DNA of 64,000 nucleotides, taken from contig JAJKHS010000077.1 in assembly GCA_021154885.1 (NCBI GenBank), positions 124,001-188,000 of the forward strand, written 5' to 3'. A program made the position numbers and the translations under genes. This DNA comes from Thermoanaerobaculum sp. (lineage in GTDB: Bacteria; Acidobacteriota; Thermoanaerobaculia; Multivoradales; UBA5704). Under the pieces are notes generated by a model, which ran no database searches, was not told the DNA's origin, and was given only the letters and a program-made list of their open reading frames with translations. Below are positions 4,094 through 40,424 of this stretch, piece by piece. Within the stretch, counting starts at the first letter, position 1. Each line of letters begins with the position of its first letter.

Positions 4094-4525
4094 ATGAAAA
4101 ACCCGTTGGTCGCGTCCGCCCTCGCCCTCCTGCTCGCCGCGCCCGCCCTGGCCCAGATGGGCAGTCCCACGGAGTCGATGGGCCGCTACAACTCCGCCGA
4201 CGAGAAGGCCATGGTTGCCTTCTCGCGCGGGCTGCGGGCGAAAAAGAAGGCGGACGAGTCGAAGGAGCCCAAAGAGAAGGCCAAGCTGTACGAGCAGGCA
4301 AGGGAGGAGCTGTCGAAGTCGCTGGGCTATCAGCAGCATTACGACGGCTTCCTCGCCCTGGGTCAGGTCTACCTCGCCCTCGGCAGGCGGGAATCCGCTC
4401 TGGACGCCTGCCTCCACGCCCAGGCCCTGAAGCCCAGCGGCGAGCCGGCGAAGAGCTGCATCGAGGAGGCCCGGAAAAAGCCCGAGAAGGCCGACACCGA
4501 GACGAAAGCCGGCGGCGGGCGATAG
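4094..4525 (+). CDS. Small secreted TPR-like protein
   Basis: A 143-residue protein with a clear Sec signal peptide (hydrophobic ALALLLAAPALA, cleavage likely after ALA-Q near residue 20). The mature part is helical and lysine/glutamate-rich; residues about 50-115 fit two or three TPR-like helical hairpins (YEQAREELSKSLGY, HYDGFLALGQVYLALGRRES, ALDACLHAQALKP), and the C-terminal tail is charged. It is probably a periplasmic scaffold, but no partner can be named. The start has a purine-rich ribosome binding site (GAGAGGAGAGAAA). It stands between prfA and ackA and ends just before a palindromic repeat element. Confidence 0.7.
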   Translation: MKNPLVASALALLLAAPALAQMGSPTESMGRYNSADEKAMVAFSRGLRAKKKADESKEPKEKAKLYEQAREELSKSLGYQQHYDGFLALGQVYLALGRRESALDACLHAQALKPSGEPAKSCIEEARKKPEKADTETKAGGGR

Positions 4526-4556
4526 GAGGGCGATAGGCGGGGCCACAAGACTAACC

Positions 4557-4617
4557 ACTCCCTCTTCTCCCGGAGGACGGGGGGAGGCTGGGAGAAGAGG
4601 GCCGGGGTGATGAGGGC
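4557..4617 (+). repeat. Palindromic intergenic repeat, copy A
   Basis: Perfect 12-base inverted arms (CCCTCTTCTCCC and GGGAGAAGAGGG) enclose about 18 purine-rich bases and are followed by CCGGGGTGATGAGGGC. The same unit recurs four more times in the window. It lies between the TPR gene and ackA and could act as a hairpin in the transcript. Confidence 0.85.
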
Positions 4618-4653
4618 TTCGGAGCGAACCCGGCTCGGATAGGATCACTCCCC

Positions 4654-5889
4654 ATGAAAGTCCTCGTCCTCAACTGCGGCAGCTCGTCCCTCAAGTTCCA
4701 GCTCATCGAGACGGACGAGCAGACCGCTCGCGAGGGGACGGACCGCACCCTGGCCAAGGGACTGGTGGAGGACACCGGCGGTACCGCCACCCTCCACTAC
4801 GAGGCCGAGGGCAGGAAGCCCCTGCGCGACGCCATCGGCGCGTTCCAGCACAAGACCGCCGTCGAGAAGGCGCTCGCCGTGCTCACTGATCCGGAGACCG
4901 GCGTCATTCCCCATAAGGACGAGATCGGCGCCGTGGGTCACCGCGTCGTCCATGGCGGCGAACGGTTCAAGACGTCGGTGCTCATCGACGAAGGGGTGAT
5001 CGACGGGATCGAGGCCAACATCGCCCTCGCGCCGCTCCACAATCCGGCCAACCTCCAGGGCTACCGCGCGGCCAGGGCCGTGCTGCCGGACGCGCCGCAG
5101 GTCGCGGTCTTCGACACCTCGTTCCATCAGACCATGCCGCCGGAGGCTTACCTCTACGCCCTGCCCTACGACCAGTACCAGCGCTTCGGCATCCGCCGGT
5201 TCGGCTTCCACGGCACGTCCCACCGCTTCGTCTCCGGCCGTGCCGCCGTCCTCCTGGGCCGCCCGTTGGACGATCCCGGGCTGCGTCTCATCACCTGTCA
5301 TCTCGGCAACGGCGCCTCGGTCTGCGCCATCCGCGGCGGCCGGTCGGTGGACACCTCCATGGGCTTCACCCCCCTGGAGGGGCTGGTGATGGGTACCCGC
5401 TGCGGCGACCTCGATCCCGCGGCGCTGCTCTACCTCATGGGCCGCGAGGAGCTGGGCGCCGCCGAGGCCAGCGCCCTGATGAACAAGCGCAGCGGCCTGC
5501 TCGGGCTCTCGGGGCTCTCCCACGACATGCGTACGCTGCTGGAGGCGGAGGAGAAGGGGAACGACCGCGCCCGCCTTGCCATCGACGTGTTCTGCTACCG
5601 GCTGCGAAAGTACATCGCCTCCTACGTGGGCGCCCTGGGCGGCGTGGACGCCCTGGTCTTCGCCGGCGGCATCGGCGAGAACTCGCCACCGGTACGCGAG
5701 CGGAGCCTCCACGGCCTGGACGCCCTGGGCCTCACCGCCGATCCCGCCCGCAACGAAGCGGCCCGGGGCACCGAGGCCGAGATCTCCCCCGATGGCGCCC
5801 GCTCCCGGGTCTTCGTGATCCCCACCGACGAAGAGCTGCTGATTGCGCGGGATTCGTTCCGGATTGTCAGCGGGCTCAGCGGGCTGTAG
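4654..5889 (+). CDS. ackA: Acetate kinase
   Basis: A 411-residue acetate kinase (ASKHA fold) that interconverts acetyl phosphate plus ADP with acetate plus ATP in the cytoplasm. The first family signature VLNCGSSSLKFQL is at residues 4-16 and the second, GFHGTSHRFV, near residues 187-196; VVHGGERF, the FDTSFHQTMP stretch and the nucleotide-binding FAGGIGENS are all conserved. Length is a little above the usual 400. No phosphotransacetylase is beside it, but a phosphoketolase, which makes acetyl phosphate directly, lies convergently 0.6 kb away. Together they would form the end of a phosphoketolase pathway giving ATP and acetate from xylulose 5-phosphate. Confidence 0.96.
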   Translation: MKVLVLNCGSSSLKFQLIETDEQTAREGTDRTLAKGLVEDTGGTATLHYEAEGRKPLRDAIGAFQHKTAVEKALAVLTDPETGVIPHKDEIGAVGHRVVHGGERFKTSVLIDEGVIDGIEANIALAPLHNPANLQGYRAARAVLPDAPQVAVFDTSFHQTMPPEAYLYALPYDQYQRFGIRRFGFHGTSHRFVSGRAAVLLGRPLDDPGLRLITCHLGNGASVCAIRGGRSVDTSMGFTPLEGLVMGTRCGDLDPAALLYLMGREELGAAEASALMNKRSGLLGLSGLSHDMRTLLEAEEKGNDRARLAIDVFCYRLRKYIASYVGALGGVDALVFAGGIGENSPPVRERSLHGLDALGLTADPARNEAARGTEAEISPDGARSRVFVIPTDEELLIARDSFRIVSGLSGL

Positions 5890-5895
5890 CCCGCT

Positions 5896-6456
5896 CTACT
5901 CCGGTGGGAAGGCGTCGGAGACTCGGAAGACCCAACCCGGGACGACTGGAGTGGCGTTGAGGGTGTCGGAGAGCGTCAGGATCTCCGGTGACAGGTTGGG
6001 GCGATGCACCAGGAACACCTGCTTCTTGGGATCCGCCACGATGACGAGTTGGACGCCAGCGCGAAGCCAGACAAGGACCTTCTCCTCCACGTCGGCATAG
6101 CCGTCGGATGGGGAGACGACTTCGACGACGAGATCCGGTGCGCCAGGGAAGTGCTTCTCTTGGGAGAAGTTGGCGGTTTGAAAGCGGGCCTTGGAAACGA
6201 AGGCCACGTCCGCGCCCCGAACTTCATCGGGATCGGAATGGAGGAGGAATCCCGTCTCGGCCGCAACCACGATGCCGAAATCGCTGGCTTGGACGTGGGC
6301 CGTGAGATGGTAGCCGATACGGTTGGCGATCCTGCCGTGGCGAAAGCCGGGTAGGGGCATGCGCCGAAGCTCTCCTCGAACGAGCTCATACCGCCAGCCG
6401 TCATCGGGCATGCGGAGAAGATCGTCTGCGGTCACCAGATGAGTGCCGACTGACAT
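5896..6456 (-). CDS. Uma2 family (DUF820) endonuclease-like protein
   Basis: A 186-residue protein of the Uma2/DUF820 family, a PD-(D/E)XK nuclease-fold group abundant in cyanobacteria and some other phyla. Visible family features are TADDLLRMPDDGWRYELVRGEL at the N-terminus, the acidic strand GADVAFVSK and the PDLVVEVVSPSD strand holding the presumed catalytic acid and glutamate. Biological role is unknown; family members are often found with mobile elements. The start giving MSVGTHLVTADDLL is preferred; an in-frame start eight codons upstream exists. It converges on ackA with only six bases between the stops and sits downstream of the phosphoketolase gene on the same strand (30 bases from its stop). 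Confidence 0.82.
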   Translation of the reverse strand: MSVGTHLVTADDLLRMPDDGWRYELVRGELRRMPLPGFRHGRIANRIGYHLTAHVQASDFGIVVAAETGFLLHSDPDEVRGADVAFVSKARFQTANFSQEKHFPGAPDLVVEVVSPSDGYADVEEKVLVWLRAGVQLVIVADPKKQVFLVHRPNLSPEILTLSDTLNATPVVPGWVFRVSDAFPPE

Positions 6457-6485
6457 AGCGGACAGAGTATCACGACTCACTGACC

Positions 6486-8921
6486 CTACTGATCCCCAGC
6501 CGTCCCCTCCGCGTCGTTGCTCGTCCGCTTCCCGCCTCCGGACGGCGCCCCCTGGCCGCCCCAGCTCCAGTTCTTGATCTCGGGCATGTCGTCCCCGTGC
6601 CTCTCGATATACTGCTTGTGATCGATCAGCTTGTTCCGCAGCGCCTGCTTGACATAGGCGGCCTTGGGTCCGAGCTTGGGGACGCGATCGATCACGTCCT
6701 CCACGAGATGGAAGCGGTCGAGGTCGTTGCGCACCACCATATCGAAAGGCGTGGTGGTCGTTCCTTCTTCTTTATAGCCCCGCACGTGGAGGTTGTCGTG
6801 GTTCGTCCGCCGGTAGGTGAGGCGGTGGACGAGCCACGGGTAGCCGTGGAAGGCGAAGATGACCGGCTTGTCGCGGGTGAAGAGGACGTCGAAGTCCTTG
6901 TCCGGCAGGCCGTGCGGGTGCTCCGAGCGCGGCTGCAGGGTCATCAGGTCGACGACGTTGACCACCCGCACGCAAAGGTCCGGCAGCTCGCGGCGGATCA
7001 GATCCACGGCCGCCAGCGTCTCCAGCGTCGGCACGTCGCCGGCGCAGGCCATCACCACGTCGGGCTCGCCGCCCTGGTCGTTGCTCGCCCACTCCCAGAT
7101 GCCGATGCCCGCCGTGCAGTGCTTCACCGCCTGGTCCATGTTCAGCCACTGCGGCGCCGGCTGTTTGCCGCAGACGACGACGTTGACGTACTGCCGGCTG
7201 CGCAGACAGTGATCGGTCACCGAGAGGAGGCAGTTCGCGTCCGGCGGCAGGTAGACGCGCACCACCTCGGCCTTCTTGTTCGCCACGTGATCGATGAACC
7301 CCGGGTCCTGGTGGCTGAAACCGTTGTGGTCCTGACGCCAGACGTGGGAGGTCAGCATGTAGTTGAGCGATGCGATGGGCCGCCGCCAGGGGATCTCCCG
7401 CGTCGTCTTCAGCCACTTCGCGTGCTGGTTGAACATCGAGTCCACGATGTGGATGAACGCTTCGTAACACGAGAAGAAGCCGTGCCGGCCGGTAAGCAGG
7501 TACCCCTCCAGCCACCCCTGGCACTGATGCTCGGAGAGCACCTCCATCACCCGGCCGTCGGGCGCGACGTCCTCGTCCGTGGGCTGGATTTCGGCGACCG
7601 ATTCCCGGCTGGTGGCTTCGAAGACGTCATTCCAGCGGTTCGACGCCGTCTCGTCCGGGCTGAAAAGACGGAAGTTGCGAGAGCCGGCGTTGCGTTTCAG
7701 CACGTCGCGCAGGAGCTTCCCCTGCACCCGGGTGGCCTCGGCGAGCGTGGCGCCCGGCGACGGCACGTCCACCGCGTAGTCGCGGAAGTCGGGCAGGCGC
7801 AGGTCGCGCAGCAGGACGCCGCCGTTGGTGTGGGGGTTGGCGCTCATTCGCCGCTCTCCCTGCGGCGCCAGCTCGGCGATCTCCGGCCGCAGCCTGCCCG
7901 TCTCGTCGAACAGCTCCTCGGGATGGTAGCCGCGCATCCAGTCCTCGAGGATCTTCACGTGCCCGGGCTGGTTCATCTCCCCCATGGGCACCTGGTGAGC
8001 GCGCCAGGTCCCCTCGACCGGCTTGCCGTCCACCTCCTTCGGACCGGTCCACCCCTTCGGTGAACGGAGCACGATCATCGGCCAGCACGGGCGCTCTTTG
8101 AAGCCGTTCTCCCGGGCGTCGGCCTGGATGCGCAGGATCTTCGCGATCACCTCGTCCAGCACCGCGGCCATGCGCTGGTGCATGGGCTCGGGATCGCTCC
8201 CCTCCACGTAGTGGGGATCGTAGCCGTACCCCCTCAACAGGCTGTCCAGCTCCGCGTGGGGAATGCGGGCCAAGACCGTGGGGCCGGCGATCTTGTAGCC
8301 GTTCAGATGGAGGATGGGCAGCACGGCGCCGTCGCGCACCGGGTTCAGGAACTTGTTGGAGTGCCAGCTCGTGGCGAGCGGCCCCGTCTCGGCCTCGCCG
8401 TCGCCGATGACGCAGGCGACGATGAGGTCCGGGTTGTCGAACGCCGCGCCGTAGGCGTGGGAGAGGGCGTAGCCGAGCTCGCCCCCCTCGTGGATCGAGC
8501 CCGGCGTCTCGGGCGCCGCGTGGCTCGGGATGCCGCCGGGAAAGGAGAACTGTTTGAACAGGTGCCGCATCCCCTCCTCGTCCTGGGAGACGTTGGGATA
8601 GAGCTCGCTGTAGGTTCCCTCCAGATAGGCGTTGGCCACCACCGCCGGACCGCCGTGGCCCGGGCCGGTGATGTAGAACATGTCGAGGTCGTGCTCCTTG
8701 ATGACCCGGTTGAGATGCACCCAGAGGAAGTTGAGGCCGGGCGTCGTCCCCCAGTGACCCAGCAGACGAGGCTTGACGTCGGAGAGCTCCAGGGGCTTTT
8801 TGAGCAGCGGATTCTTGAACAGGTAGATCTGCCCCACCGAGAGATAGTTCGCGGCGCGCCACCAGGCGTCCATCTTGCGCAGGAGATCGGGAGAGAGCGG
8901 CCCTTCGTCAGGATTCGGCAT
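6486..8921 (-). CDS. xfp: Phosphoketolase (xylulose 5-phosphate / fructose 6-phosphate)
   Basis: An 811-residue thiamine-diphosphate enzyme that cleaves xylulose 5-phosphate (and often fructose 6-phosphate) with phosphate to acetyl phosphate and a shorter sugar phosphate. Both phosphoketolase signatures are present: [16 protein letters not shown], and the cofactor-binding [13 protein letters not shown] a few residues later. Length is normal (about 790-830). The start [16 protein letters not shown] is fixed by a strong GGAGGT site seven bases upstream; a longer frame extends 48 codons further but without family similarity. The first 13 or so codons plus ribosome binding site are duplicated at about 20.31-20.37 kb. 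Acetate kinase close by is the likely metabolic partner. Confidence 0.96.
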
Positions 8922-28427: not shown

Positions 28428-28590
28428 TAGGAGCCTGCGCGGCAGAAAGCTTGGTGATGACCCCCGGCTCTCTCGGAAAGCAGGGACAACAGGGACACGA
28501 AGAAGACCAGAGAGCAGAGCTTTTCTTGTCCCTGATGTCCCTGAAGTCCCTGTTGTCCCTGACTTCGGCTTTCTGCCGCGCAGGCTCCTA
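28428..28590. repeat. 163-bp nested inverted repeat between convergent genes
   Basis: Outer arms of 23 perfect bases (28428-28450 and 28568-28590, core GAGCCTGCGCGGCAGAAAGC) enclose inner arms (CAGGGACAACAGGGAC near 28481 and its complement near 28547-28562). The right half also holds four tandem units of TCCCTGNNG type. The right outer arm includes the stop codon of the PIN toxin gene. It could form a long hairpin in either transcript or a cruciform in DNA. It may be a bidirectional terminator or a small non-autonomous mobile element. Confidence 0.85.
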
Positions 28591-29013
28591 CCCGAACGGA
28601 TTCTCCACTCGCACCCCTTCATACGTCCGCCCGGCGGGAAGCGACTCCGAGAGTACGCGGGTACAGTCCGCCCGGCGGGCGGCTTCGAGGATGGCGGCGT
28701 CCCAGGGGGAAAGCTCCTCGCGCTCGGCGAGACTGACGGCGGCGGAGACGAGGTCGGTGTCCACCTCCACGAGATGCCACTCGCGGAGGGCGCGGACGTA
28801 GTCGGCGGCCTCCATGGTAGAGAGCTTCACCTCGGCCCGGCGGGTGAGGACGTCGTAGAGCTCCACCAAGACCTGGGTGCTGGTGGCATAGCACCCCTCG
28901 ACGAACCCGCGTTCGACGATGGAGCGGGCCAGCCGCTGCTTCTCGGGGTGATCGGCGCAGACTGCATAGGCGAGCACACTGGTGTCGACGAAAGCGGCGA
29001 GCTCACCTTTCAT
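28588..29013 (-). CDS. PIN-domain (VapC-like) ribonuclease toxin
   Basis: A 141-residue PIN-domain protein. The first catalytic acid is in FVDTSVLAYAV (Asp10), a second in TSTQVLVELYDVL (Glu near 51) and a third in LSPWDAAILEAARRADC (Asp near 104). The usual fourth acid lies in an LSED-like site, which here reads LSES, so one position may be altered. VapC toxins cleave tRNA or rRNA. The gene overlaps the upstream antitoxin by 11 bases. Its stop codon lies within the arm of the large inverted repeat, so the toxin's own transcript ends there. Confidence 0.86.
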   Translation of the reverse strand: MKGELAAFVDTSVLAYAVCADHPEKQRLARSIVERGFVEGCYATSTQVLVELYDVLTRRAEVKLSTMEAADYVRALREWHLVEVDTDLVSAAVSLAEREELSPWDAAILEAARRADCTRVLSESLPAGRTYEGVRVENPFG

Positions 29014-29330: not shown

Positions 29331-31571
29331 TCAAGGCCTCAGAGGCTCCCCCGTTTGGGGTATGGGCAAAGCACCCGGAAGCGGTGGTAGATAGGCCATC
29401 ACGAGGAGGCGATCTCCCGCCTCAAGAACCCAGCCCGGGGCTCCCCGGCGGGGATTGGTGAGCATCCGCGACCTGCCATCGATCATTCTCTGCACGCCGA
29501 CGGGCACCAACGGCTCGTCGGGGTAGGTCTTGAGGACCATGGCGGCGTAGTCGCGGAAGGTCATCCCGAGGGCTCCGGGAGGAAGGTCGAGCGTGTACAT
29601 CTCGTTCGTCACGGGCGAGATCTTGAGCAGCTCGGAATAGAAGCCGACGATCCCCGCGCTGAGCGCCGCCTGGGACAAGAGGAACGTCCGGATCTGCATC
29701 CCGGAGATCGGCTCGAGGAGCCCTGGAAAGTCCTTCGCCAGCTCCTCAAGGACCGACTGGTTGGCTGGATCGGTCAGCTCCGCGACGACATGGAGATCGG
29801 TACGCCCCACCTCGCGGGCAATCTTGCGCAGCATCAGGACAGAGCGGATGGTGCGCTCGTCTCCGTGCTCGTCGTTGCTGAGGATCAGGATGGAGCGGGT
29901 ATCGGCAGCGTTCGCATTGCACAGCGCCCGCTCGTCGGTGGGGTTGCCCACACTGATGAAGAAGTCTTCGAAGGCTTCGTCGCGGCCGCTGCCCGCTTCC
30001 TTGAAGCGCCGTAGCTCCATCGATTCGTCGTCGGTGAGCACGACAACGACGAAAGTCCCCTCCCGTTCGCGGATAATCGGATGATGGAGCTCGCGGACCA
30101 CATCGGCGGCGCGCGGGCTCCAGTTCAGCAGCAGGAAATGATCTTTTAGATTGTACGGCATACGCTTCTCCCTGTGGATGAAGAACCGAGCCATCCAGCC
30201 GGATGTCACGGCGAAGAAGGCCGGGCCGAGGAGGAGGCCCAGGGCGGCGACGATCCGGCCCTCTTCGGTGTAGGGGGAACGCCCTTCCAGACCGCTGAAC
30301 AGGTAGATGGTGATGGACCAGAACGACTCGCCGAGGGTAGAGAAGTGCTCGTTGATCCCGCGTTCGAGGAGATATGTGGTGAGCGTCACGAGCGCGATCC
30401 CCAGAGCGAGGAGGAGCGCGAGCAGGAACGGGAGCCTGTCTTGGCGCCACAGGATGCGGACCTGCTCGTGCCAGCCACGCTGGTATCCCCAAAATCCGAG
30501 GGTGGAGAGCGCAAGGAGCAGGGCTATCCATTTGATCAGCGGCCGGAGGCGCGGCCAGAGAGGGTCGTCGACCTCGACGCCCGCCAGGAAGTGGAGCTTG
30601 GATTTCCCGAGGGGAGCAGCCTCGGGGGAGTTGTCCGGGATCTTGCAGGCCGTTTTGCCGGCGACCGCTTCTCGGTTTTTGGCAACCAGCCTTGCCCAGG
30701 CCTCGCGCGTCGCCTGCAGCAGAAACCGGGCCGTCTCCGGGTGCTCGTTCTCGCGGGCCAGGAACAGGACAGGGACGGCGATCGTCGCCACCGGCTCGGA
30801 CTGGTTCGCGTAGGTGTTGGCTGGAATTCGGCCGAGGACAGTCTGCCGCCGGTAGTGCGTCTCCTCTTCCGCGGTCAACTCGCGAAGCGTCTTGGGATCG
30901 AGAGGGAGGAGCGAGACCGTCCCGGAGCCCATCAACTCACAGATTGGCGGGAGGCCTGGGGTTGCGACGAGCATCGCCACGTCCAGCCGGTCGTTGCGAA
31001 ATTCTTGGATGAGAAGGTCGACGGGGATCGACCCCTTAGCCTCCGTGCGAGGGCTCGCTGACGAGAGCAGGATCCGCCCTCCGAGCGACGAGAGCGGAGT
31101 CCCCAGGCTGTCCAGAAAGCGGCTGGCTGTCAGGCGAGTCCCGCTGCCCGGTTCCCCCACCCACCACAGCCTCAGCCGGGCGAGATCGCTCGTCTGCTCC
31201 ACGTGCACGGAGTCGCGTACAAAGATGTGAAGATACTCAAAGAAGATCCGGCCAACGACCTTCACGCGCGTGCCTGGGGTATTGAGGAAGTATTCGCTGA
31301 CCACGTCCTGTTGCGCCAAGGCGAAGCGGACCTCCCCCCTCTCGAGCTTCTCCAGACTCTCTTCAACTCCTTGAGTCATGACGGGGTGGACCCCGCGCGC
31401 TGGAACCTCTTGCGCGACGGCCCCTGCCAGGCGCCAGTACATGCCGTCCGCGCGGCCGGCAGCAATCGTGATCGGCCTTTGGGCCTCAGCGACGGAGCCC
31501 CAGAGGAGAGCCGCGGCGAGGCCGACCACCCATCGCCGATGAGGAGGAGGATGATGAAGTGCCGACGTCAT
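29331..31571 (-). CDS. Predicted TAXI-gated ion channel with cytosolic RCK domain
   Basis: A 746-residue fusion. After a signal peptide (VVGLAAALLWGSVAEAQ), residues about 33-320 form a TAXI-type periplasmic binding domain (PITIAAGRADGMYWRLAGAV, FALAQQDVVSEYFLN). A helix (about 347-366) leads to a two-helix pore module: TM about 380-403, pore loop FWSITIYLFSGLEGRSPYTE, TM about 440-465. A cytosolic RCK/TrkA-N-like domain follows (HFLLLNWSPRAADVVRELHH, RSILILSNDEHGDERTIRSV) with a C-terminal regulatory domain. The loop lacks the canonical TVGYG K+ filter (SGLEG instead), so ion selectivity is unclear. Known families supply each domain; the combined ligand-gated-channel reading is inference. 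It is divergent from the tubulin-like operon. Confidence 0.78.
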   Translation of the reverse strand: MTSALHHPPPHRRWVVGLAAALLWGSVAEAQRPITIAAGRADGMYWRLAGAVAQEVPARGVHPVMTQGVEESLEKLERGEVRFALAQQDVVSEYFLNTPGTRVKVVGRIFFEYLHIFVRDSVHVEQTSDLARLRLWWVGEPGSGTRLTASRFLDSLGTPLSSLGGRILLSSASPRTEAKGSIPVDLLIQEFRNDRLDVAMLVATPGLPPICELMGSGTVSLLPLDPKTLRELTAEEETHYRRQTVLGRIPANTYANQSEPVATIAVPVLFLARENEHPETARFLLQATREAWARLVAKNREAVAGKTACKIPDNSPEAAPLGKSKLHFLAGVEVDDPLWPRLRPLIKWIALLLALSTLGFWGYQRGWHEQVRILWRQDRLPFLLALLLALGIALVTLTTYLLERGINEHFSTLGESFWSITIYLFSGLEGRSPYTEEGRIVAALGLLLGPAFFAVTSGWMARFFIHREKRMPYNLKDHFLLLNWSPRAADVVRELHHPIIREREGTFVVVVLTDDESMELRRFKEAGSGRDEAFEDFFISVGNPTDERALCNANAADTRSILILSNDEHGDERTIRSVLMLRKIAREVGRTDLHVVAELTDPANQSVLEELAKDFPGLLEPISGMQIRTFLLSQAALSAGIVGFYSELLKISPVTNEMYTLDLPPGALGMTFRDYAAMVLKTYPDEPLVPVGVQRMIDGRSRMLTNPRRGAPGWVLEAGDRLLVMAYLPPLPGALPIPQTGEPLRP

Positions 31572-31895
31572 CGATGTCTCGCCCTTCGAGAGGCACACCA
31601 GTTAGACACCGACTCGGGAAGAATTAGTGAGGCGCAACGTTTCGGTCGGCAGCCCTTGGGATCATTTGGAAATATGAATAAGCAATATACTTGACATTAA
31701 AACTCTTCCACCATAGCATGAAAGTTGTCGACCTCATGTGATGGAGCGAGCGGCTGTCTTCCTCGTCCACCCATAAACAAAGGGAGGCCCCGTGGTGTCT
31801 CTGTAGATCCACTGCAGGGCAGTGGCGGCAATGGCCTTCCCTCAAGGGGAGATGAGACGTTGAGGCTAGAACATTCAGAGGAGGAGGACCAGGCA
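31572..31895. other. 324-base divergent promoter region
   Basis: It separates the leftward channel gene from the rightward seven-gene operon. It is less GC-rich than its flanks, has no credible gene, and carries the strong promoter candidate described separately. Confidence 0.6.
31691..31719 (+). promoter_or_regulatory. Strong sigma70-like promoter for the tubulin-like operon
   Basis: A perfect TTGACA (31691-31696), a 17-base spacer and TAGCAT (31714-31719, two mismatches to TATAAT). It lies about 175 bases upstream of the first operon gene, leaving a long leader. It is the best consensus match seen in the window. Confidence 0.6.
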
Positions 31896-32993
31896 GTGAG
31901 CCGGTCTGGTAGCGGAGCCCGACACGGGGCGCTCTCGGGGTGCCTCTGGTTCCTGCTCTGGACACTCGGCTTGCCGCTGGCGGCGCAGGGTCCGACACCG
32001 GGGCTCGCCCCGCAAACGATCCATCTCCGCGGCGGCGAGCGCCGGGACGTCTACATCAACCTCGGCGCCGACAACCGGCCGGACGTCGAGCTCCAGGCGC
32101 GGCTGAGCCGGGTTGGCGCATGGCCTGACATGAAACGCGTCCGCCTCGACATCGTCCGCAACGCCACGCAGGATCTCGGGACGGAAACCGTTCTCCACTA
32201 CGTCCCCGGGGGGCGCGTGCTCTGGTTGGAAGCTGCCGCCGACCGCTGCGCGCCCGCCGGGATCTACCACGCAACCGTCGACGTGTCGATCGTAGAACCT
32301 GGTCAGACCGCCGTCGTTAAGGCGCCTCCCATCTCTCTCAACATTGAGATCGCCGACAGTTGGGCCTGCGGAATAGGTCGCGCCCAACACATCCTCTTGC
32401 CGCTTCCCCTGGCGCTCGGTTTTTTCTTTCTTTTGACCTCCGTCACGCACAGCCGGCGTCTATCCATGGACCGTCTCGCCAAGCGGCTTCAGCACCTTAC
32501 GTGGAATGGTAGCGGCGAGCCAGGGATCACCAAGGACGAGGTCGACGTCCTCGGCAAGCTCGCCGAGAAATTGAGGTCCGTCGATCGGGTGAAGGTGTGG
32601 CTTGCCGCCAATCCCCTCCGTTTCGGCTGGCTGGCCTATGAAGAGACCGTCGAGATCATGTTGCGCGGCCCCAGCCTGGAGGGCCTCACCTTCACGGCGG
32701 TGGCGCCGCACTCCTGGGACGCGCCCGCCGAAGGTCATCTCTACGCCCGAGCTAAGACCGATGGAAGCGTTGACCTTCTTGGCGTTCCGGACCGCAACAA
32801 CAAGCTCTCCGGGCTTGATCTGTACGGACCGCCTCGCGACTTCGGATCCGGGAGGGAGGTCCGTAACCTGGACCTGGTCTACTCCTCTGCCGCAAAGCTA
32901 CCTGGCCGGCCGGCAGGGTGGAGGCTTCTCAAAGTGCAGATCCGAAAGAGCCCGGGAGCGGCTTCGGGGCTCGCGGCGGAGACGCGGCGATGA
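31896..32993 (+). CDS. Membrane protein sharing a cytosolic module with the VWA protein
   Basis: A 365-residue protein beginning with GTG eight bases after AGGAGGAGG. A signal peptide (GCLWFLLWTLGLPLAAQ) leads to a periplasmic beta domain (about 30-160), then one membrane helix (HILLPLPLALGFFFLLTSV, near 167-185) and a cytosolic C-terminus. That tail contains WLAANPLRFGWLAYEETVEI, closely paralleling WLRSNPLRFGLPGGRYHETV in the VWA protein two genes on; both are preceded by similar LAKRLQHLTW / LATKLKPLVW stretches. The shared module probably binds the same partner, perhaps the tubulin-like protein. No named family was recognised. First gene of the operon; it overlaps the next gene by four bases. 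Confidence 0.65.
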   Translation: MSRSGSGARHGALSGCLWFLLWTLGLPLAAQGPTPGLAPQTIHLRGGERRDVYINLGADNRPDVELQARLSRVGAWPDMKRVRLDIVRNATQDLGTETVLHYVPGGRVLWLEAAADRCAPAGIYHATVDVSIVEPGQTAVVKAPPISLNIEIADSWACGIGRAQHILLPLPLALGFFFLLTSVTHSRRLSMDRLAKRLQHLTWNGSGEPGITKDEVDVLGKLAEKLRSVDRVKVWLAANPLRFGWLAYEETVEIMLRGPSLEGLTFTAVAPHSWDAPAEGHLYARAKTDGSVDLLGVPDRNNKLSGLDLYGPPRDFGSGREVRNLDLVYSSAAKLPGRPAGWRLLKVQIRKSPGAASGLAAETRR

Positions 32994-33760
32994 GATTCCT
33001 GGAAGGAGTCCTGATGAACCTCCTCGCCAGTATTCTGCTCTGGCTGGGAGGGCTCTTGCTGGGCAAAACGTTCGACTTCGGGGTTAGTGATGTCAAGCCC
33101 GTTGAGATCCCTTGCTGTCAGATCATCAACACCTATGTCAACCAACCCCCCCAGTCGAGATTTGACCCTCCCGATCCGCCACCCAAGACGGACACTCAGG
33201 TCTTGAGTGCTCTCCAGTGTACGGATCACCAGGGTCACAAGGGCGCTTTCCGAGCCATGGTGTTCCTCGACAGCTACAACTGGGTGCGCGGCAGCACTGA
33301 GCTCGTCGAGTTCAACGGCCAGGTCATTCCCTACTTCCTCACGGTTCTCCGCCAGGAGCCAGTGCAGAAGATTCTCGCGGGAGCGGAGGAGATCGTTGCC
33401 GTGGGAACCGCCTCTTGTGAATCGCCGCTGGGACCCCTGGTCGAGAACCACCGGGCGGAGGAGCGCGCCGAACAGCTCGTCCGCTGGATCGAGGAATCCC
33501 GCGCTCAGTTGCCCAGCCGCCCCGGTCCGATGCGGAACGTGATTCCTCTCAACCTTGGAGGCTTCACCAAGGAGTGTCCGAAGTCCGAGGCGGCCGAGAC
33601 CTCTCGGCAAAGACGCCTCGTCCTGATCGCGGTCACCGACAGGCAGAAGGACCTCGACCTCGAGTCGTGCCTCCAGGAGAGGATGAAAGAAGATTCCTCC
33701 CTCAAGTTCCTGACCGACAACTATTCGAGATTCGATCTGGACGCCGGCTGGAAGATCTGA
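32990..33760 (+). CDS. Membrane-anchored OmpA-like protein
   Basis: A 256-residue protein with one N-terminal membrane helix (LMNLLASILLWLGGLLLGKT). The C-terminal ~150 residues have the order of an OmpA/MotB-like domain: EEIVAVGTASCESPLGPL as the conserved strand and turn, RAEERAEQLVRWIEESRAQL as the RA..L helix, and QRRLVLIAVTDRQKDLDLES as the final strand. OmpA-like domains often bind peptidoglycan, but here the match is distant. It starts in an ATGA overlap with the previous gene and ends directly against the VWA gene. OmpA-family proteins were among the partners reported for one tubulin-like family, which supports the assignment. Confidence 0.6.
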   Translation: MRFLEGVLMNLLASILLWLGGLLLGKTFDFGVSDVKPVEIPCCQIINTYVNQPPQSRFDPPDPPPKTDTQVLSALQCTDHQGHKGAFRAMVFLDSYNWVRGSTELVEFNGQVIPYFLTVLRQEPVQKILAGAEEIVAVGTASCESPLGPLVENHRAEERAEQLVRWIEESRAQLPSRPGPMRNVIPLNLGGFTKECPKSEAAETSRQRRLVLIAVTDRQKDLDLESCLQERMKEDSSLKFLTDNYSRFDLDAGWKI

Positions 33761-36562
33761 ATGAGAACCGGAACCTCAAGATCCGATCGCCAGCGACGCC
33801 CCCTCCTATGGAGGGCCATCGCCGTAGCATGTCTCTTGTCCACCCTTCTGGCGGTCTCGGCCGCCGCACAGTCGACGGCCCGTTCCGCCGAGGTGCGCTC
33901 GGCGCAGTACGTCCTCATCCTCGATGACTCTGGGAGCATGAAGACCACCGACCCGGACCGCCTCAGCCTCTTCGCCGCGCGTTCGCTGGTCAGCATGCTC
34001 GACGACCGCGACGAGGTGTCAGTGGTGCGAATGAACGGCCCTCGCGACGGGGCGCCGCCACCGCCGATCGAACCGCTGCGGAAGAACCGCGCTCAGATCG
34101 ACCAGCTCCTGAATCTCCAAGGGGGGATCGCCGGGTACAGCGCGAAATACACGCCGTGCCGGTCCTCGTTCATGGCGGTCCGGCGGCTGCTCGACGCGGC
34201 GTACCAGCCGGGAGTCTCTCAGGTCGTCATGCTGCTGACCGACGGGCAGTGCGAACCCGCAGAGGAAGAGTTATCGAGTGAGGATTTCCTGAGCGGCCTG
34301 CGCTCCCACGACCAGGGGGCCTTCCAGTTCTACCTGCTGCGCTTCCGCGGCATGCGGTACTCGCCGGCGCTGGTACGCTTGGCCGAGCGCACCGGGGGGA
34401 AAGCGATGGAGGCCGACCCGCGAGATCCGGCATCGATCCTCCAGACCTTCGCCACCGCACTGTCCCGCTCCCAGGGGTACGAAGCTTATCTCCTCTCGCC
34501 GCGCGAGGCCCACCTGGCGGCACACCGCGGCGCCGAACGGGTCCGCCTGCTCGCCATTGCCCCCGACGCCGGCCCCGGCCTCTCATTTTCCGTCCGTAGC
34601 CCGCGGGGTAGTGCCCCGCAGATGCTTGACACTCCCCGCGCCGGCACGCATCAGTACGGCGCCAACGGGAGGGTCTTCCGCTTCGCCGCGCTCGACTACC
34701 GGCCGGACGCCGAGCCGGTCGAGGTGGACGTGCCGGGTGGCGGAGAGCGCTGGAAAGTGGTGGCGCTGCCGGAGTATCGCCTCGCGGTGCGCCGGGCTGT
34801 TCAAGCGGGGAGCTGCGATCGTCCTGGAGCGGAGGTCCAGAGCGCCGAGGTGGGAGCGTCTGTCTGCATGATCGTCGAGCTGGTCAACGCGAGCGGCCAG
34901 GTAGTGGGCGGCGAGGTCACGGGAGGCGACCTGACCGCCCGGGTGCAGATCCGCCGCGCCGACCTGCCGGGCCAGCCGCCGGAGGATCTCGCCGCGAACC
35001 CACTCGCCGCCGGCCAAGCGCGGTTCGGCCTGCCGCGGAGCCACCTGGAGAAGGGGGACTACGAGCTCCAGCCGCTGGTCTCCCTGAGCCTCTCCTCCGG
35101 CGAAGCGATCAAGCTGCGCGGCACACCGGCGTCGCTCGAGGTCTCCTCGGTAGAGATCCATCCCCAACCCGCTCGTCTCGCCTTCGGCAGTTTGCGCCCC
35201 GGCGATCTCGCGCAGAGCCCATTCCGCCTCGCGGGCAACTTCCCGAAGGCGTCCGGGCACCTCGAGCTGGGCGACCGCCCCGATCTGCCGGCCTGCGTGA
35301 CCGCCGAGCTGAGCGGCGTCCTGGAGGGCAAGCCCCAGCCGATCACGCCGGGTCAGGGGTACAACCTCGTGCTGCGCGTCTCTCCCTACTGTGGCCCGCA
35401 GCCGATCGACCGCCCGGTCAACACGGTCCTCCGCCTGGTGCTCGCGGGCGAAGGCGGCCGCCAGCTTCCCGTTATCGAGCTGCCGTTGACCTTCCGGCTG
35501 GACTACCGCATCGACGCCCCCAAGGAGCTGACCGTCAAGGTCCGCGGCGGGCAGGTGGAAGACGTGCCGGTAACGGTGGGCGGCAACTTCCAGAAGCAGG
35601 TGTCGCTGCGCGCCGTGGTGGCCGGCCCGAAAGAGGCCGAGGCGTGGCCGGAGGGCCGCGGCGACCTGGTCCTCGGGTTCGCCGGCGAGGGTTCTGCGAA
35701 GGTGCTGCGCGACAAAGAGGGCGATCCGCTCCTCAATCACGACTTCTCCGCCGGTCCGGGGGCGGCTCCGCTACGGCTGCGCGCCCTCCCCGGCCGCTGC
35801 TGCGCCGCGGGCTCCTTCGCGACCCGCCTGGGGCTCGCCCCCGCCGGCAATCAGCCTCTGCCGCCAGGAGCCCGGCCGCCGGAGCCGGTCGTCGTGCCGG
35901 TGCGCGTCGAGGTCGAGCCGGCCGGCTTCTGGGCCTGCTATGGACCGCGCATCCTCGCGGCGCTGGCCGCCCTGCTGTTGCTCCTGCTCGTCCTGTACTG
36001 CGTGAACATGTTTCGTCACAGCATCTTCCTCAAGCCCGATGCGCTGGCGACGAAGCTCAAGCCCCTGGTGTGGACCGAATACGGCGACGCGGTGGAGCTC
36101 GACAAATCGAAGGGCGAGGTGACGCGGCTGGTGCGCCAGGCCCTGCCGCTGCACCGCCGGGCCAGCGCCTGGCTGCGCTCCAACCCTTTGCGCTTCGGGC
36201 TGCCCGGAGGGCGTTACCACGAGACGGTGGAGATGCTGTTGCAGCCGAGCCGCGACGTGGCCCGCTCTCAGGTCCTCCTGGTGGCCGAAGGCGACGTGCA
36301 GGCGCGGGCGGAGAGCGAGCCGGAGAATTTCCGTCGCCGGCTCTTCGCGATCGCTGCCGGGAAGGTCCTGTTCCTGGCCGTGCCGGATGCGCAGGGCCGC
36401 ATCGGCACCCTGGTCTGGCAGAACGGCTTCCTGCCTTCGGAGTTCGAGGGGGAGCCCGCCCGGCTGCGCGCGGTCAAGCTGCACAGGGCAAAGCTGCTGC
36501 GTTCCCTCGAAGCTTGGGAGACTCATGAGGAAGGCAAAGCCGCCGGCTGGCAGATCGGTTAG
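33761..36562 (+). CDS. Membrane-anchored VWA-domain protein
   Basis: A 933-residue protein. A signal peptide (VACLLSTLLAVSAAAQ) is followed by a VWA domain (about 45-230) with an intact metal-ion-dependent adhesion site, VLILDDSGSM (Asp55, Ser57, Ser59). Residues about 230-720 are several beta-rich domains, probably Ig-like. A membrane helix (RILAALAALLLLLLVLYCVN, near 729-748) leads to a cytosolic tail of about 180 residues that repeats the WLRSNPLRFG...ETVEML module of the first operon gene. The layout places the VWA domain outside and the shared module inside. VWA proteins of this kind are predicted partners of the tubulin-like GTPase. It begins directly after the OmpA-like stop. Confidence 0.85.
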   Translation: MRTGTSRSDRQRRPLLWRAIAVACLLSTLLAVSAAAQSTARSAEVRSAQYVLILDDSGSMKTTDPDRLSLFAARSLVSMLDDRDEVSVVRMNGPRDGAPPPPIEPLRKNRAQIDQLLNLQGGIAGYSAKYTPCRSSFMAVRRLLDAAYQPGVSQVVMLLTDGQCEPAEEELSSEDFLSGLRSHDQGAFQFYLLRFRGMRYSPALVRLAERTGGKAMEADPRDPASILQTFATALSRSQGYEAYLLSPREAHLAAHRGAERVRLLAIAPDAGPGLSFSVRSPRGSAPQMLDTPRAGTHQYGANGRVFRFAALDYRPDAEPVEVDVPGGGERWKVVALPEYRLAVRRAVQAGSCDRPGAEVQSAEVGASVCMIVELVNASGQVVGGEVTGGDLTARVQIRRADLPGQPPEDLAANPLAAGQARFGLPRSHLEKGDYELQPLVSLSLSSGEAIKLRGTPASLEVSSVEIHPQPARLAFGSLRPGDLAQSPFRLAGNFPKASGHLELGDRPDLPACVTAELSGVLEGKPQPITPGQGYNLVLRVSPYCGPQPIDRPVNTVLRLVLAGEGGRQLPVIELPLTFRLDYRIDAPKELTVKVRGGQVEDVPVTVGGNFQKQVSLRAVVAGPKEAEAWPEGRGDLVLGFAGEGSAKVLRDKEGDPLLNHDFSAGPGAAPLRLRALPGRCCAAGSFATRLGLAPAGNQPLPPGARPPEPVVVPVRVEVEPAGFWACYGPRILAALAALLLLLLVLYCVNMFRHSIFLKPDALATKLKPLVWTEYGDAVELDKSKGEVTRLVRQALPLHRRASAWLRSNPLRFGLPGGRYHETVEMLLQPSRDVARSQVLLVAEGDVQARAESEPENFRRRLFAIAAGKVLFLAVPDAQGRIGTLVWQNGFLPSEFEGEPARLRAVKLHRAKLLRSLEAWETHEEGKAAGWQIG

Positions 36563-36611
36563 CCGCGGCTGAGGATCTTGCAACCACGGATTCCGCCGAA
36601 GGAGGCGAGGA

Positions 36612-39600
36612 ATGCCGAGACATCAGAAGGTGGTCATCGAGGAGATGTTGACCAAGCCGAGCGCGGTCTGCCCGACGCTCTTCGTCGGTCTGGGTGGCTG
36701 CGGCTGCCGCCTGGTGAGCCGGGTCGCGCGCCACCTGCAGCGGCGCCCCGACTACGAGGAGCGCTACAAGGCGCTCGTCAAGTTCGCCCTGGTCGACACC
36801 AACGTCAACGAGCTGGAAGGCTTCCGGGAGATGGCGGACAGCACGTTCCTCATCAGCGACTTCGAGAAGGAGGAGTACGCCGATCTCGCCTCCGGGAAGC
36901 TCTTCCTGGAAGCCGACCCCTATTTCACGCAGTGGGTGCCGCAGAACTATCGGTTCCGCGCTGGCGACACGGCCGGCGCCGGGCAGATCCGCATCGAGTC
37001 GCGGCTCGGCGTCTTCTATCAGATGAAGCACAAGGACTTCGTGCCGAAGTTCCGGAGGCTCCTGGAGGATCTCAAGTCGCACGAGTTGGGGCACCGCCGC
37101 CTGGACAGTCAGGAGATCCGCATCGTCATCTGCTACTCGGTGGCCGGCGGCACCGGCTCGGGCTGCCATCTGCCGATCGCCTACCTGCTGCGCGACCTGG
37201 CCAGCGAGCTCGGTAAGCCGCGTCTGATCGGCGTCGCCGTGCAGCCGGCGGTCTTCGAGGACAAAACTGGCATCAACCGCGACGGCACGTTCGCCAACGC
37301 CTATGCCGCGCTCAAGGAGACCGAGTACCTGATGAAGCTGGGCGCTCCCGATTCGCGCTTCTTCCCCGAGGAGGGGCTCGCCTTTCATTACGACCCGTCG
37401 GACGTCTCCAAACGGATTGTGCGCCAGCCGCCATTCGAGTTCGTCTACATCGTGGACAAGCCGCAATCGTTCACCGTGCCCGATCCAGTCGAGGCCGCAG
37501 CGGATGGCCTCTATCTTCAGTTCTTCTCCCCGCTCTACTCGTATCAGGCCTCCGACTATGACAACTTCACGCAGCACCAGCGCTTCCTGGTGCCCCACGA
37601 CTTCGAGGCCAAGGGCATTATCGGCTTCACCACATTCTATGGCTCCTATGGAGCTGCGGTGCTCCTCGTGCCTGTCGACGGCCTGGTCGACTTCTGCTCG
37701 CAGTCGGCGGCGCTGTCGCTGATGCGGGCGAGTTTCCTGCGCTCGATCCCTGGCGATGCGATCTATGCGTCGCTGCGCAACGTGCCAGAGCCGTTCTACG
37801 AGGTGGCGCTCGGCAACGAGAAGAATGAAAAGCCGGTCCAGGTAGCGGATTTCCCGAAGAAGGAGAAGGACCAGCGCGAGAGGCTGATCGATCGCTTGTA
37901 CATGAAGCGGGTCCGCCTGCTGGCCGCCTGTGAGTTCGCGGACAATGAGCTGAAGCGCTTCTTCACCCTGTTCCGCCACGGCCACCGGGCGGGCGAGATC
38001 CCGCGATCGGATGGCACCTGGGAGCTCAAGCCGGAGAGGGTCAAGGAGGACCAGGAGCAGCTCGCGCGCAACGGCATGCGCCTTTCGATCGGCGCCATCG
38101 TCCTCCCGACGATCACGAGCGACAATCCCCAGGAGCTTCCCGGCCTGCTGCAGCAAGCCCGCAAGGCGATGGAGCTTCACGCCGAGGAGGACCAGCCGAC
38201 GGCGGCCGGCATTAACCGTGTCTACGACGCGCGGACCCGCGCCTCGGTGTGGCTGGACGAGTTCAAGAGCGTCGGGATGAGAATCCTCAAGAACGGCTAC
38301 AAGAGCGGGACTCTCAGCCATCCCGGGATGGACGCCCTGGTGGAGCTGTCGTTCCTCAACGACGAAGCCGGGGAGGTGGACCTGGCGGCCAAACGCTATG
38401 CCGTGCTGTCCATTCTCGAACGGGTACGCTGGGACGTCACGCCCCCGGAGCGCACCGCTGACTTCGACCTGGGCGAGCACAAGGATACCGACAAGCTCAA
38501 TCCCAAAGAGGTCCCGGCGCTCCTCGAGTCGCTGCAGAGCCAGGCCATCGAGCGGGCGATGCAGATCGTCAAACAGCAGTTCATCGAGTCGCTGGGGGAC
38601 CTGCGCACCAACCTCGACAAGTTCGCCATCACGCAGCGCGAGCTCGAAAAGGGCTTCGACCAGTTGGAGGCCGAGCAACTGAACCGCCTGCGCAAGCTGC
38701 GCGAGGACGGCGGCAAGAGCTCGTCGGCCAACCAGTACGTGCTCGACGCCGAGGCGCTGCAGATCGAGGACGGCCGGCGCATGTGGGACTTTTACTTCGA
38801 GGACAAGATCGCCGAGCTGCCTGATCTCTCGCTCAGCAACCGCGAGATCCAGGTGCTGCTGGGCGACACGGTCACCGCCATGAGCGTGCGCCGCGGCGGC
38901 GCCACCAGCGCCGACCTGGACAAGCTCTTCACCGCACTGCGTGAGCATGTCGAGAAGTTCCTCAGTGCCTGGATCGGCGGCGATCCCCACTCGCCGGACC
39001 GCGAGCGGCGCGACGGTCTGACGCTGTCCGACGCGTTGGAGCTCGAAGTGGTCTACCGCGCCCTCTACCGCAGCAACAGCCCGCAGGTGGAGGCTGGCGG
39101 CGACAAGGAGATCCGCGAGCTGATCGCCACCTATCGCAACCCGACAAATGAGGAGAAGCTTGACCTCAAAGACGAAAGGCACAGCGACTACCTGCGCGAC
39201 AAGATCAAGCGGCTGGTCAAGGAGAAGGCGTCGCTCCTCTGCGTCTACGAGGAAGGACGCGACCAGCACGGCGGCGTGCGGCCGGACAACGTCTTCGTCG
39301 CCGCCATCGACGAGAACTTCAAGAACAGCACGATCGAAGAGGCGATCCGCGGCGCCGATCCCAACCTCACCTGGGTGACGACGGGATGGACCAACCCCAA
39401 GGAGATCATCTTCTACCGCGCGGTCCTCAACGTCCCGCTCTACGTCTTCGGCCGGATGAAGGAGATGAAGGCGGAGTACGAGCGCTTCAAGGCGCTCGCC
39501 AAGCGGCCCAAGGTGCTGCACATCGATCATAACTGGGAGGACATGCTCCCGGATCTCGATCCCGACAGCGCGCAGGAGAACCACCGCCAGCAGCTCCTGC

Positions 39601-40424
39601 GGAACCACGTGATCAACTTCGCGGCGCTGATGACCACACGGCGTCCCGACGGCGGACCGGCCTTCGTCGTCCGCCGCGGTGGCAAGTACTGCCTCTCGGA
39701 TCCGGACTGGGACGGCCTGAGCGACGACGGGGAGTTTGGTGACGACGGCCTGACCCGCCTGGGGGAAACCCTGGCCGACTCGATCCAGCGGCTGCCCGAA
39801 GTGCTGGAGTCGGAAAAGGTCACCTATCTCTCCTACCAGCAGATGCTGCGCGCCGTGCGCGAGGGGCTGGCGCCGGAGGTGCTCGCTGCGGTCGTCGAGC
39901 TGCCGTTCCGCTGGCGCAGTAACCACGACGAATTGCGCAACAAGTACGGTCCCAACCGGACGCCGGTGCAGCAGGAGAAGCTCAAGGACTACGCCGACGC
40001 CTATCAGCGCCTGCGCGAGGCGTTGGAGAAGCTCTACGATCGGCTGAGCAACGTCAGCGTCGAGCAGCGGACGCTCGGCGAGGATCTGGGCGCCAACGCG
40101 GCCAACCTGACGGCCGAGGAGGCGGAGGAGAACCTCGCCCAGAGCATCAAGATCCTTGAGACGTTCTGCGAGGTGTGGAAGGCGCTGGAGAACCCGGATC
40201 AACCGGGAGCCGTGGCGAAGAGCTTCCAGCGGCTGTTTCGTCCTTTGCCGGAGGACAAGCTCAATCGCCTGCTGGAAAAGCTGCGTAGCGGTCCGACACG
40301 GCCGGCCGGAGGAGTGCGGCGAGGGGCGCCGCCGGCGGGAGGGAGCGTCGCGGTTGGCTCCGGGATCGCCGCGGTCGTGCCGGGGAACGGACAGACTCCG
40401 GGCGACAGCCCGGCGGGGAACTGA
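36612..40424 (+). CDS. Large tubulin/FtsZ-like GTPase
   Basis: A 1270-residue protein with an N-terminal tubulin-superfamily domain (about 20-430). The first loop reads LFVGLGGCGCRLVSRVAR (residues 23-40), a DTN follows in KFALVDTNVNE (near 57-67), and the signature GTP-binding loop is YSVAGGTGSGCHLP with GGTGSG at 179-184. A catalytic-loop-like acidic segment follows (AVFEDKTGINRDGTFANAY). The remaining ~840 residues are helical and unassigned, making it several times longer than FtsZ. No membrane helix is seen. It belongs to the 'tubulin-like' families predicted to act in membrane remodelling with VWA and OmpA-like partners. GTPase activity is inferred from motifs only. Confidence 0.85.
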   Translation: MPRHQKVVIEEMLTKPSAVCPTLFVGLGGCGCRLVSRVARHLQRRPDYEERYKALVKFALVDTNVNELEGFREMADSTFLISDFEKEEYADLASGKLFLEADPYFTQWVPQNYRFRAGDTAGAGQIRIESRLGVFYQMKHKDFVPKFRRLLEDLKSHELGHRRLDSQEIRIVICYSVAGGTGSGCHLPIAYLLRDLASELGKPRLIGVAVQPAVFEDKTGINRDGTFANAYAALKETEYLMKLGAPDSRFFPEEGLAFHYDPSDVSKRIVRQPPFEFVYIVDKPQSFTVPDPVEAAADGLYLQFFSPLYSYQASDYDNFTQHQRFLVPHDFEAKGIIGFTTFYGSYGAAVLLVPVDGLVDFCSQSAALSLMRASFLRSIPGDAIYASLRNVPEPFYEVALGNEKNEKPVQVADFPKKEKDQRERLIDRLYMKRVRLLAACEFADNELKRFFTLFRHGHRAGEIPRSDGTWELKPERVKEDQEQLARNGMRLSIGAIVLPTITSDNPQELPGLLQQARKAMELHAEEDQPTAAGINRVYDARTRASVWLDEFKSVGMRILKNGYKSGTLSHPGMDALVELSFLNDEAGEVDLAAKRYAVLSILERVRWDVTPPERTADFDLGEHKDTDKLNPKEVPALLESLQSQAIERAMQIVKQQFIESLGDLRTNLDKFAITQRELEKGFDQLEAEQLNRLRKLREDGGKSSSANQYVLDAEALQIEDGRRMWDFYFEDKIAELPDLSLSNREIQVLLGDTVTAMSVRRGGATSADLDKLFTALREHVEKFLSAWIGGDPHSPDRERRDGLTLSDALELEVVYRALYRSNSPQVEAGGDKEIRELIATYRNPTNEEKLDLKDERHSDYLRDKIKRLVKEKASLLCVYEEGRDQHGGVRPDNVFVAAIDENFKNSTIEEAIRGADPNLTWVTTGWTNPKEIIFYRAVLNVPLYVFGRMKEMKAEYERFKALAKRPKVLHIDHNWEDMLPDLDPDSAQENHRQQLLRNHVINFAALMTTRRPDGGPAFVVRRGGKYCLSDPDWDGLSDDGEFGDDGLTRLGETLADSIQRLPEVLESEKVTYLSYQQMLRAVREGLAPEVLAAVVELPFRWRSNHDELRNKYGPNRTPVQQEKLKDYADAYQRLREALEKLYDRLSNVSVEQRTLGEDLGANAANLTAEEAEENLAQSIKILETFCEVWKALENPDQPGAVAKSFQRLFRPLPEDKLNRLLEKLRSGPTRPAGGVRRGAPPAGGSVAVGSGIAAVVPGNGQTPGDSPAGN

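Follow-up and report, generated by a model that had tools for sequence, protein, structure and literature searches.

A TAXI solute-binding domain joined to a P-loop pore and an RCK domain in one acidobacterial protein: a putative ligand-gated cation channel

The analysed stretch of DNA (64,000 nucleotides, hereafter the window) carries a gene in which a TAXI domain precedes a membrane pore and a cytosolic RCK domain. The question it raises is whether one protein is gated both by an external ligand and by a cytosolic factor, as the initial annotation had proposed. The ORF of 746 amino acids (29331-31571, minus strand) is intact, with an ATG at 31571 and a stop codon at 29331-29333; an alternative GTG start in the ORF list lies nine codons upstream of this ATG. 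The gene is single copy, as no second match was found in its genome, which is 96.6% complete. The fusion of TAXI, pore and RCK in one intact ORF is confirmed, and the proposed architecture agrees with the domain HMMs, the structure models and ten further genomes. However, the membrane part contains three transmembrane (TM) helices instead of the two first proposed, the additional one at residues 339-366 (Table 1). The earlier impression that such a protein had not been described agrees with a search of open PMC full texts, with subscription papers and most preprints outside its range, in which no hit showed a TAXI-channel fusion in its title or opening abstract lines.

Table 1. Features of the channel gene, with positions in the window and residues of the predicted protein (aa).
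Feature	aa	Position	Strand	Basis
Whole gene, TAXI - TM1 - TM2 - P-loop - TM3 - RCK	746 + stop	29331..31571	-	
N-terminal hydrophobic signal segment	1-30	31482..31571	-	Translation; model helix 11-24, low confidence
TAXI (NMT1_3) periplasmic flytrap domain	32-312	30636..31478	-	PF16868, Foldseek, VIA
TM1, extra helix running outside to inside	339-366	30474..30557	-	Hydropathy, K/R counts, model
TM2, outer pore helix	379-403	30363..30437	-	Hydropathy, both models
Pore helix and filter loop	413-435	30267..30335	-	Models; profile alignment to KcsA and 4h33
Filter FSGLE, at TVGYG position	425-429	30285..30299	-	Alignments
TM3, inner pore-lining helix	436-467	30171..30266	-	Hydropathy, both models
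RCK domain, N and C lobes	476-735	29367..30146	-	PF02254, DMI1 match, VIA

The domain HMMs, which had been named as a check, placed TAXI over its curated Pfam cut-off (PF16868, residues 36-295, E 8e-16, 58.9 bits against 27) and left RCK slightly under the cut-off (PF02254, TrkA_N/RCK, E 2e-4); the window protein's own pore had no Ion_trans_2 or Lig_chan match at E<=1. Since these two HMMs miss it, the window pore taken by itself is assigned from a KCNQ2 match, the models and the family. The NCBIfam model TRAP_TAXI (TIGR02122) gave an E-value of 8e-20 but scored under its curated cut-off (70.9 against 84.35 bits). In the PDB sequence search, TAXI binding proteins matched residues 19-287, the KCNQ2 pore matched residues 391-466 (E 1.4e-6), and MthK matched weakly. 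The best sequence matches of the RCK region (residues 476-739) were the gating rings of DMI1 (5.7e-10 in this search, 2.3e-10 in a second comparison with the RCK) and CASTOR (4e-7). Additionally, a pore profile of 18 family sequences matched K+ channels (E 3.6e-11), and a 23-row profile of pore and RCK matched CASTOR (9e-36), Slo (1.9e-35) and MthK (2.5e-28). The RCK domain of the window protein is of the MthK/CASTOR/Slo type.

Structure prediction, also suggested at the outset, resulted in a pore helix and an inner helix in both AlphaFold models. Model 1 (full length, 10 sequences) had a mean pLDDT of 74.8 and was divided into TAXI (34-304), TM1 (339-366), TM2 (379-403), pore helix (413-425), TM3 (436-467) and RCK from about residue 476; its pTM of 0.42 means that the relative placement of the domains is not fixed by the model. 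Model 2 (pore-RCK, 23 sequences) reached a mean pLDDT of 82.6 and a pTM of 0.64, with the pore helix at 413-426. In Foldseek, model 1 matched the TAXI structure 1us4 (1.8e-17, TMt 0.71) and full-length MthK (1.3e-13), and the best match of model 2 to full-length MthK was 2.9e-15 over about 350 columns, with a TMt of 0.63-0.68 (6oly and 1lnq, the latter at 0.68). In VIA, model 1 was aligned with TAXI structures at Z 23-26 (best 4ddd, Z 25.6, rmsd 2.7 over 267), with MthK 6u68 at Z 16.8 (rmsd 7.9 over 290) and with the DMI1 gating ring at Z 16.5 (rmsd 4.8 over 219). Model 2 gave Z 20.0 for 6u68 (rmsd 8.6 over 310) and Z 19.3 for 6oly (rmsd 5.7 over 303), and its RCK alone was superposed on the MthK RCK with an rmsd of 3.0-3.7. 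The large rmsd of pore and RCK together suggests that the arrangement of one against the other in the model is not that of MthK.

Lysine and arginine residues (K/R) within 15 residues of TM2 numbered 2-6 on the inner side and 0-2 on the outer side in all 11 fusions scanned, so TAXI would lie outside and RCK inside. This topology demands a TM1 between TAXI and the pore, and in 11/11 fusions the hydropathy scan detected a single helix separating TAXI from the pore pair. The TAXI-less relatives L035 and L037, both scanned by hydropathy, harbor the pore pair alone without the extra helix, a pattern that fits a role of this helix in carrying an outside domain. At the cut-off of the Kyte-Doolittle scan, the signal segment of the window protein was not flagged, and that of other fusions (e.g., L063, L034 and L073) was.

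For the ligand pocket, we compared the TAXI domain with VcGluP, a TAXI protein. According to the study of that protein (PMC11574862), glutamate is contacted chiefly by Y45 and Q93, loss of this Tyr and Gln cut binding 213- and 990-fold, and the Tyr and the Gln occur in 78% and 54% of the TAXI sequences surveyed. The equivalents in the window protein are Y45 and Q87, and both residues are conserved in 9/9 rows of our set A3 having the region, as well as in the translations of L153 and L077. E112 is conserved in eight of the nine A3 rows and is Asp in L063, and the equivalent of VcGluP Ser75 is Val69 in the window protein and Ser in the eight other rows. Because two key VcGluP binding residues are retained, glutamate-like amino acids or small carboxylates are our first guess for the ligand. 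A further locus, L041 (6381-8930, plus strand), encodes an 850-aa ORF with PF16868 in three stretches, after which a TM and a cytosolic tail seem to come; it is another TAXI protein not in the usual TRAP form.

The search for the same fusion in other genomes returned ten more, from Acidobacteriota, Planctomycetota, Sumerlaeota and Myxococcota, nine of them with RCK. Counting the window, TAXI and pore thus share an ORF in 11 genomes, and RCK is present in 10 of these. A phylum scan (396 genomes, 34 of them matching at E<=1e-5) added four TAXI-pore-RCK proteins whose ORFs were read, L031, L032, L033 and L034, the N-terminus of L033 being cut by a contig end. The GTDB scan gave 80 loci, with single-ORF fusions including L063 (Planctomycetaceae), L071 (Sumerlaeota), and L073 and L075 (Myxococcota). 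A class scan around one relative matched 15 of 151 genomes and yielded L056, in which TAXI and pore are present and the ORF stops before any RCK; a scan of the L063 phylum matched 20 of 343 genomes and yielded the fusion L153. The Pfam TAXI model matched all ten fusions of set A3 (E<=0.01) and, separately, L153. This is independent support, whereas the E-values of our local TAXI HMM for L031-L034 are circular, the HMM having been built from those rows and the window.

Within the window's order, the fusion was detected in 1 of 72 genomes, and two same-genus genomes, both fragmented, gave no match to the channel gene. The wide scans scored two or three candidates per genome, so fusions may be missed and the gene is perhaps less rare than it appears. 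L034 (6531-9584, minus strand) is a 1018-aa TAXI channel with a second RCK in the same ORF, the only fusion with two. In L077 (Abditibacteriales; 4337-6014, plus strand), TAXI and pore-RCK lie in overlapping frames, and neither the last part of TAXI nor the first helices are present; this broken fusion reflects either decay or an assembly error.

We then placed the fusions among related channels. In a quick tree of 113 rows, the TAXI rows and TAXI-less channels with SGL(D/E/N) filters formed one clade (support 84). A careful tree with 44 of these rows recovered the clade with support of 100/96; its 23 rows comprise 11 TAXI rows (ten fusions and L077) and 12 TAXI-less channels. L056, with too short a match, was not included in either tree, and L032 and L034 are long branches. 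The TAXI-less members (Cloacimonadota, Aminicenantes and others) are two-TM RCK channels with SGLD, SGLE or SGLN filters; they share the clade, the filter type and RCK with the fusions but have no TAXI in the protein. The local TAXI HMM detected no separate TAXI partner in the available flanks of the 12 loci, a weak negative given that several of these loci are short. In the AU test, the 11 TAXI rows as a single clade were not rejected (p-AU 0.259), which does not prove one fusion event.

The initial annotation had set SGLEG against the TVGYG of K+ channels. The loop lacks TVGYG and is of a non-K+ type, as implied there, but the register differs, with FSGLE falling on TVGYG in the alignments. 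The pore profile sets the family filter glycine against the first GYG glycine of KcsA and of 4h33. At this position, column 427, 21 of the 23 clade rows have Gly. At column 429, where GYG has its second glycine, 19 rows carry an acidic residue (10 Glu and 9 Asp), the remainder being Asn (two), Gln (one) and Gly (one). No clade member (0/23) carries a GYG or TVGYG signature. The filters of L073 (TGFED), L075 (TGYED) and L153 (AGYED) look like steps away from TVGYGD. Lig_chan, the glutamate-receptor pore, matched 13 of the 23 rows at E<=1 (best 6.5e-7), although those of its matches that were tabulated protein by protein all fell below the curated cut-off; Ion_trans_2 matched 15 rows, with a weaker best E-value (2.6e-5). 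The glutamate-receptor filter is QGCD; its resemblance to SGLD offers a clue but does not count as a test.

Further filters were noted among the loci. RCK channels with GEP or AEP replacing GYG and with longer N-termini form another non-K+ class (L076, L078, L080-L085, L088-L091, L093, L097, L133 and L136), all cyanobacterial except L136 (Acidobacteria). Their filter is mostly SGEP, with AGEP in L093 and L097 and SAEP in L084, L090 and L091. In L118 (Planctomycetota; 4704-6972, plus strand), an RCK ORF adjoins a second ORF that combines pore and RCK, has SGFD as its filter and matches Lig_chan weakly; the pair is possibly a two-gene channel.

We consider it rather likely that the protein is a tetrameric, TAXI-gated and RCK-regulated cation channel without K+ selectivity. 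Four subunits would build one pore, and TAXI would close around a small extracellular solute, such as a glutamate-like amino acid or another small carboxylate. The closed TAXI would pull on TM1/TM2 and thereby change the TM3 gate, and the RCK ring may act as a cytosolic input or brake. Joint gating by an external ligand and a cytosolic factor, as first proposed, may fairly be suggested for this layout. A ring of four filter glutamates would conduct Na+ or Ca2+ with no preference for K+, and instead of taking up solute the protein would deliver a depolarising or Ca2+ signal.

Unlikely, though worth weighing, is a non-conducting scaffold that relays the ligand state of TAXI to the RCK ring, which would contact another protein. 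The filter varies among members, and column 429 is acidic in 8 of the 11 fusions, the exceptions being L031 (Gln), L033 (Gly) and L056 (Arg); as the acid is absent from these three, some fusions may not conduct. Against a scaffold stand the filter glycine (21/23) and the acid at column 429 (19/23) in the clade, the predicted pore and inner helices, and the window protein itself, in which Pfam detected no effector domain C-terminal of RCK. The chance that the protein is a K+ channel, selective despite its altered filter, is small: RCK domains chiefly regulate K+ channels and the pore profile is nearest to them, but the TVGYG signature is gone from all 23 clade members.

The putative ligand-gated cation channel resembles several known systems in part. 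With MthK and Slo/BK it shares a two-TM P-loop pore followed by RCK, and the fold match extends over the columns given above. Those channels have a TVGYG filter, whereas the window protein has FSGLE, and we know of none with an extracellular ligand domain before an extra TM. The initial annotation had pointed to CASTOR/POLLUX. This link holds for the RCK, nearest by sequence to DMI1/CASTOR, and the non-K+ filter with an acidic residue is a further likeness; CASTOR is Ca2+-selective with the filter ADSGNHA, according to PMC6697748. However, CASTOR/POLLUX/DMI1 have four TM helices, tandem RCK and no TAXI, whereas the window protein has three TM helices and one RCK, and its fold fits MthK equally well or better. 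In the quick tree, tandem-RCK proteins from bacteria whose filters are DPG/DSG belong to a different clade from the TAXI channels. Plain membership in CASTOR/POLLUX is therefore rejected on filter, TM count and tree position, and the RCK kinship is retained.

GluR0 and the ionotropic glutamate receptors likewise combine a periplasmic-binding-protein flytrap with a P-loop pore. Their flytrap is split by the pore, as described in PMC2950845, the main text of which contains none of the words TAXI, NMT1, TrkA, RCK or TRAP. In the window protein, TAXI is contiguous, belongs to another family and stands before an extra TM, with RCK after the pore. This TAXI is not split by the pore, and the window protein is not classed as an ionotropic glutamate receptor.

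The same solute-binding domain occurs in TAXI TRAP transporters and TAXI-GltS fusions, but their partner is an elevator transporter and here it is a channel pore. A TRAP-type permease in place of the channel, the alternative raised by the initial annotation, is rejected: neither the protein nor the whole genome gave a DctM (PF06808) match, the control being positive in 7 of 14 genomes. A second TAXI match was also absent from the genome. Improbable, in our view, is a role in uptake, with TAXI capturing a solute and feeding it through the pore. P-loop filters of the K+-channel type conduct ions, not amino acids, and the membrane part is such a pore with no elevator transporter. The absence of a TRAP permease match from the genome would suit uptake, as would the TAXI-GltS fusion transporters proposed in PMC12344293. 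The latter are the one precedent that we found for TAXI joined to a non-TRAP partner, and the word "channel" is absent from the main text of that paper. An artefact, with unrelated ORFs joined by chance or in a chimeric contig, has a negligible probability: most named members are MAGs and L077 is a broken version, but the gene is internal to a contig of 197,896 bp, L063 aligns with the window protein across residues 10-733 at 40% identity, and recurrence in independent genomes refutes it.

The protein seems to represent a type of ligand-gated ion channel not yet described. To our knowledge, flytrap-gated channels are limited to the glutamate-receptor line, and RCK channels are gated only from inside or by voltage. 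More tentatively, and with some doubt, we suggest that the amino-acid-gated cation channel was invented separately here: a TAXI flytrap, instead of the split one of glutamate receptors, was joined to an RCK channel whose filter had turned from GYG into G-x-(E/D), and the resulting pore would be opened by a solute outside, tuned by the ring inside and permeable to Na+ or Ca2+. If this is true, TAXI proteins gain a signalling role beyond transport. If one protein has both inputs, bacteria would offer a ligand-gated channel with two inputs that is tractable for study, and the filter series GYG, GYE, GFE, GLE and GLD would be useful for work on the loss of K+ selectivity and the gain of divalent permeation.

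Finally, we inspected the surroundings of the gene. No shared neighbour gene was seen among six fusion loci in a reading of their ORF lists alone. PADLOC gave no match for the channel protein or five window neighbours, and Rfam returned nothing in the window. A divergent cluster adjoins the channel gene (31725-40424, plus strand); its products are two proteins without a family assignment, a protein of 933 aa that matches VWA below threshold (0.019) and a tubulin-like protein of 1270 aa (PF13809, 1.1e-45). Directly downstream of the channel gene lies a PIN-domain protein (28588-29013, minus strand; PF01850, 7.8e-11), which resembles the toxin in toxin-antitoxin pairs of the PIN type.
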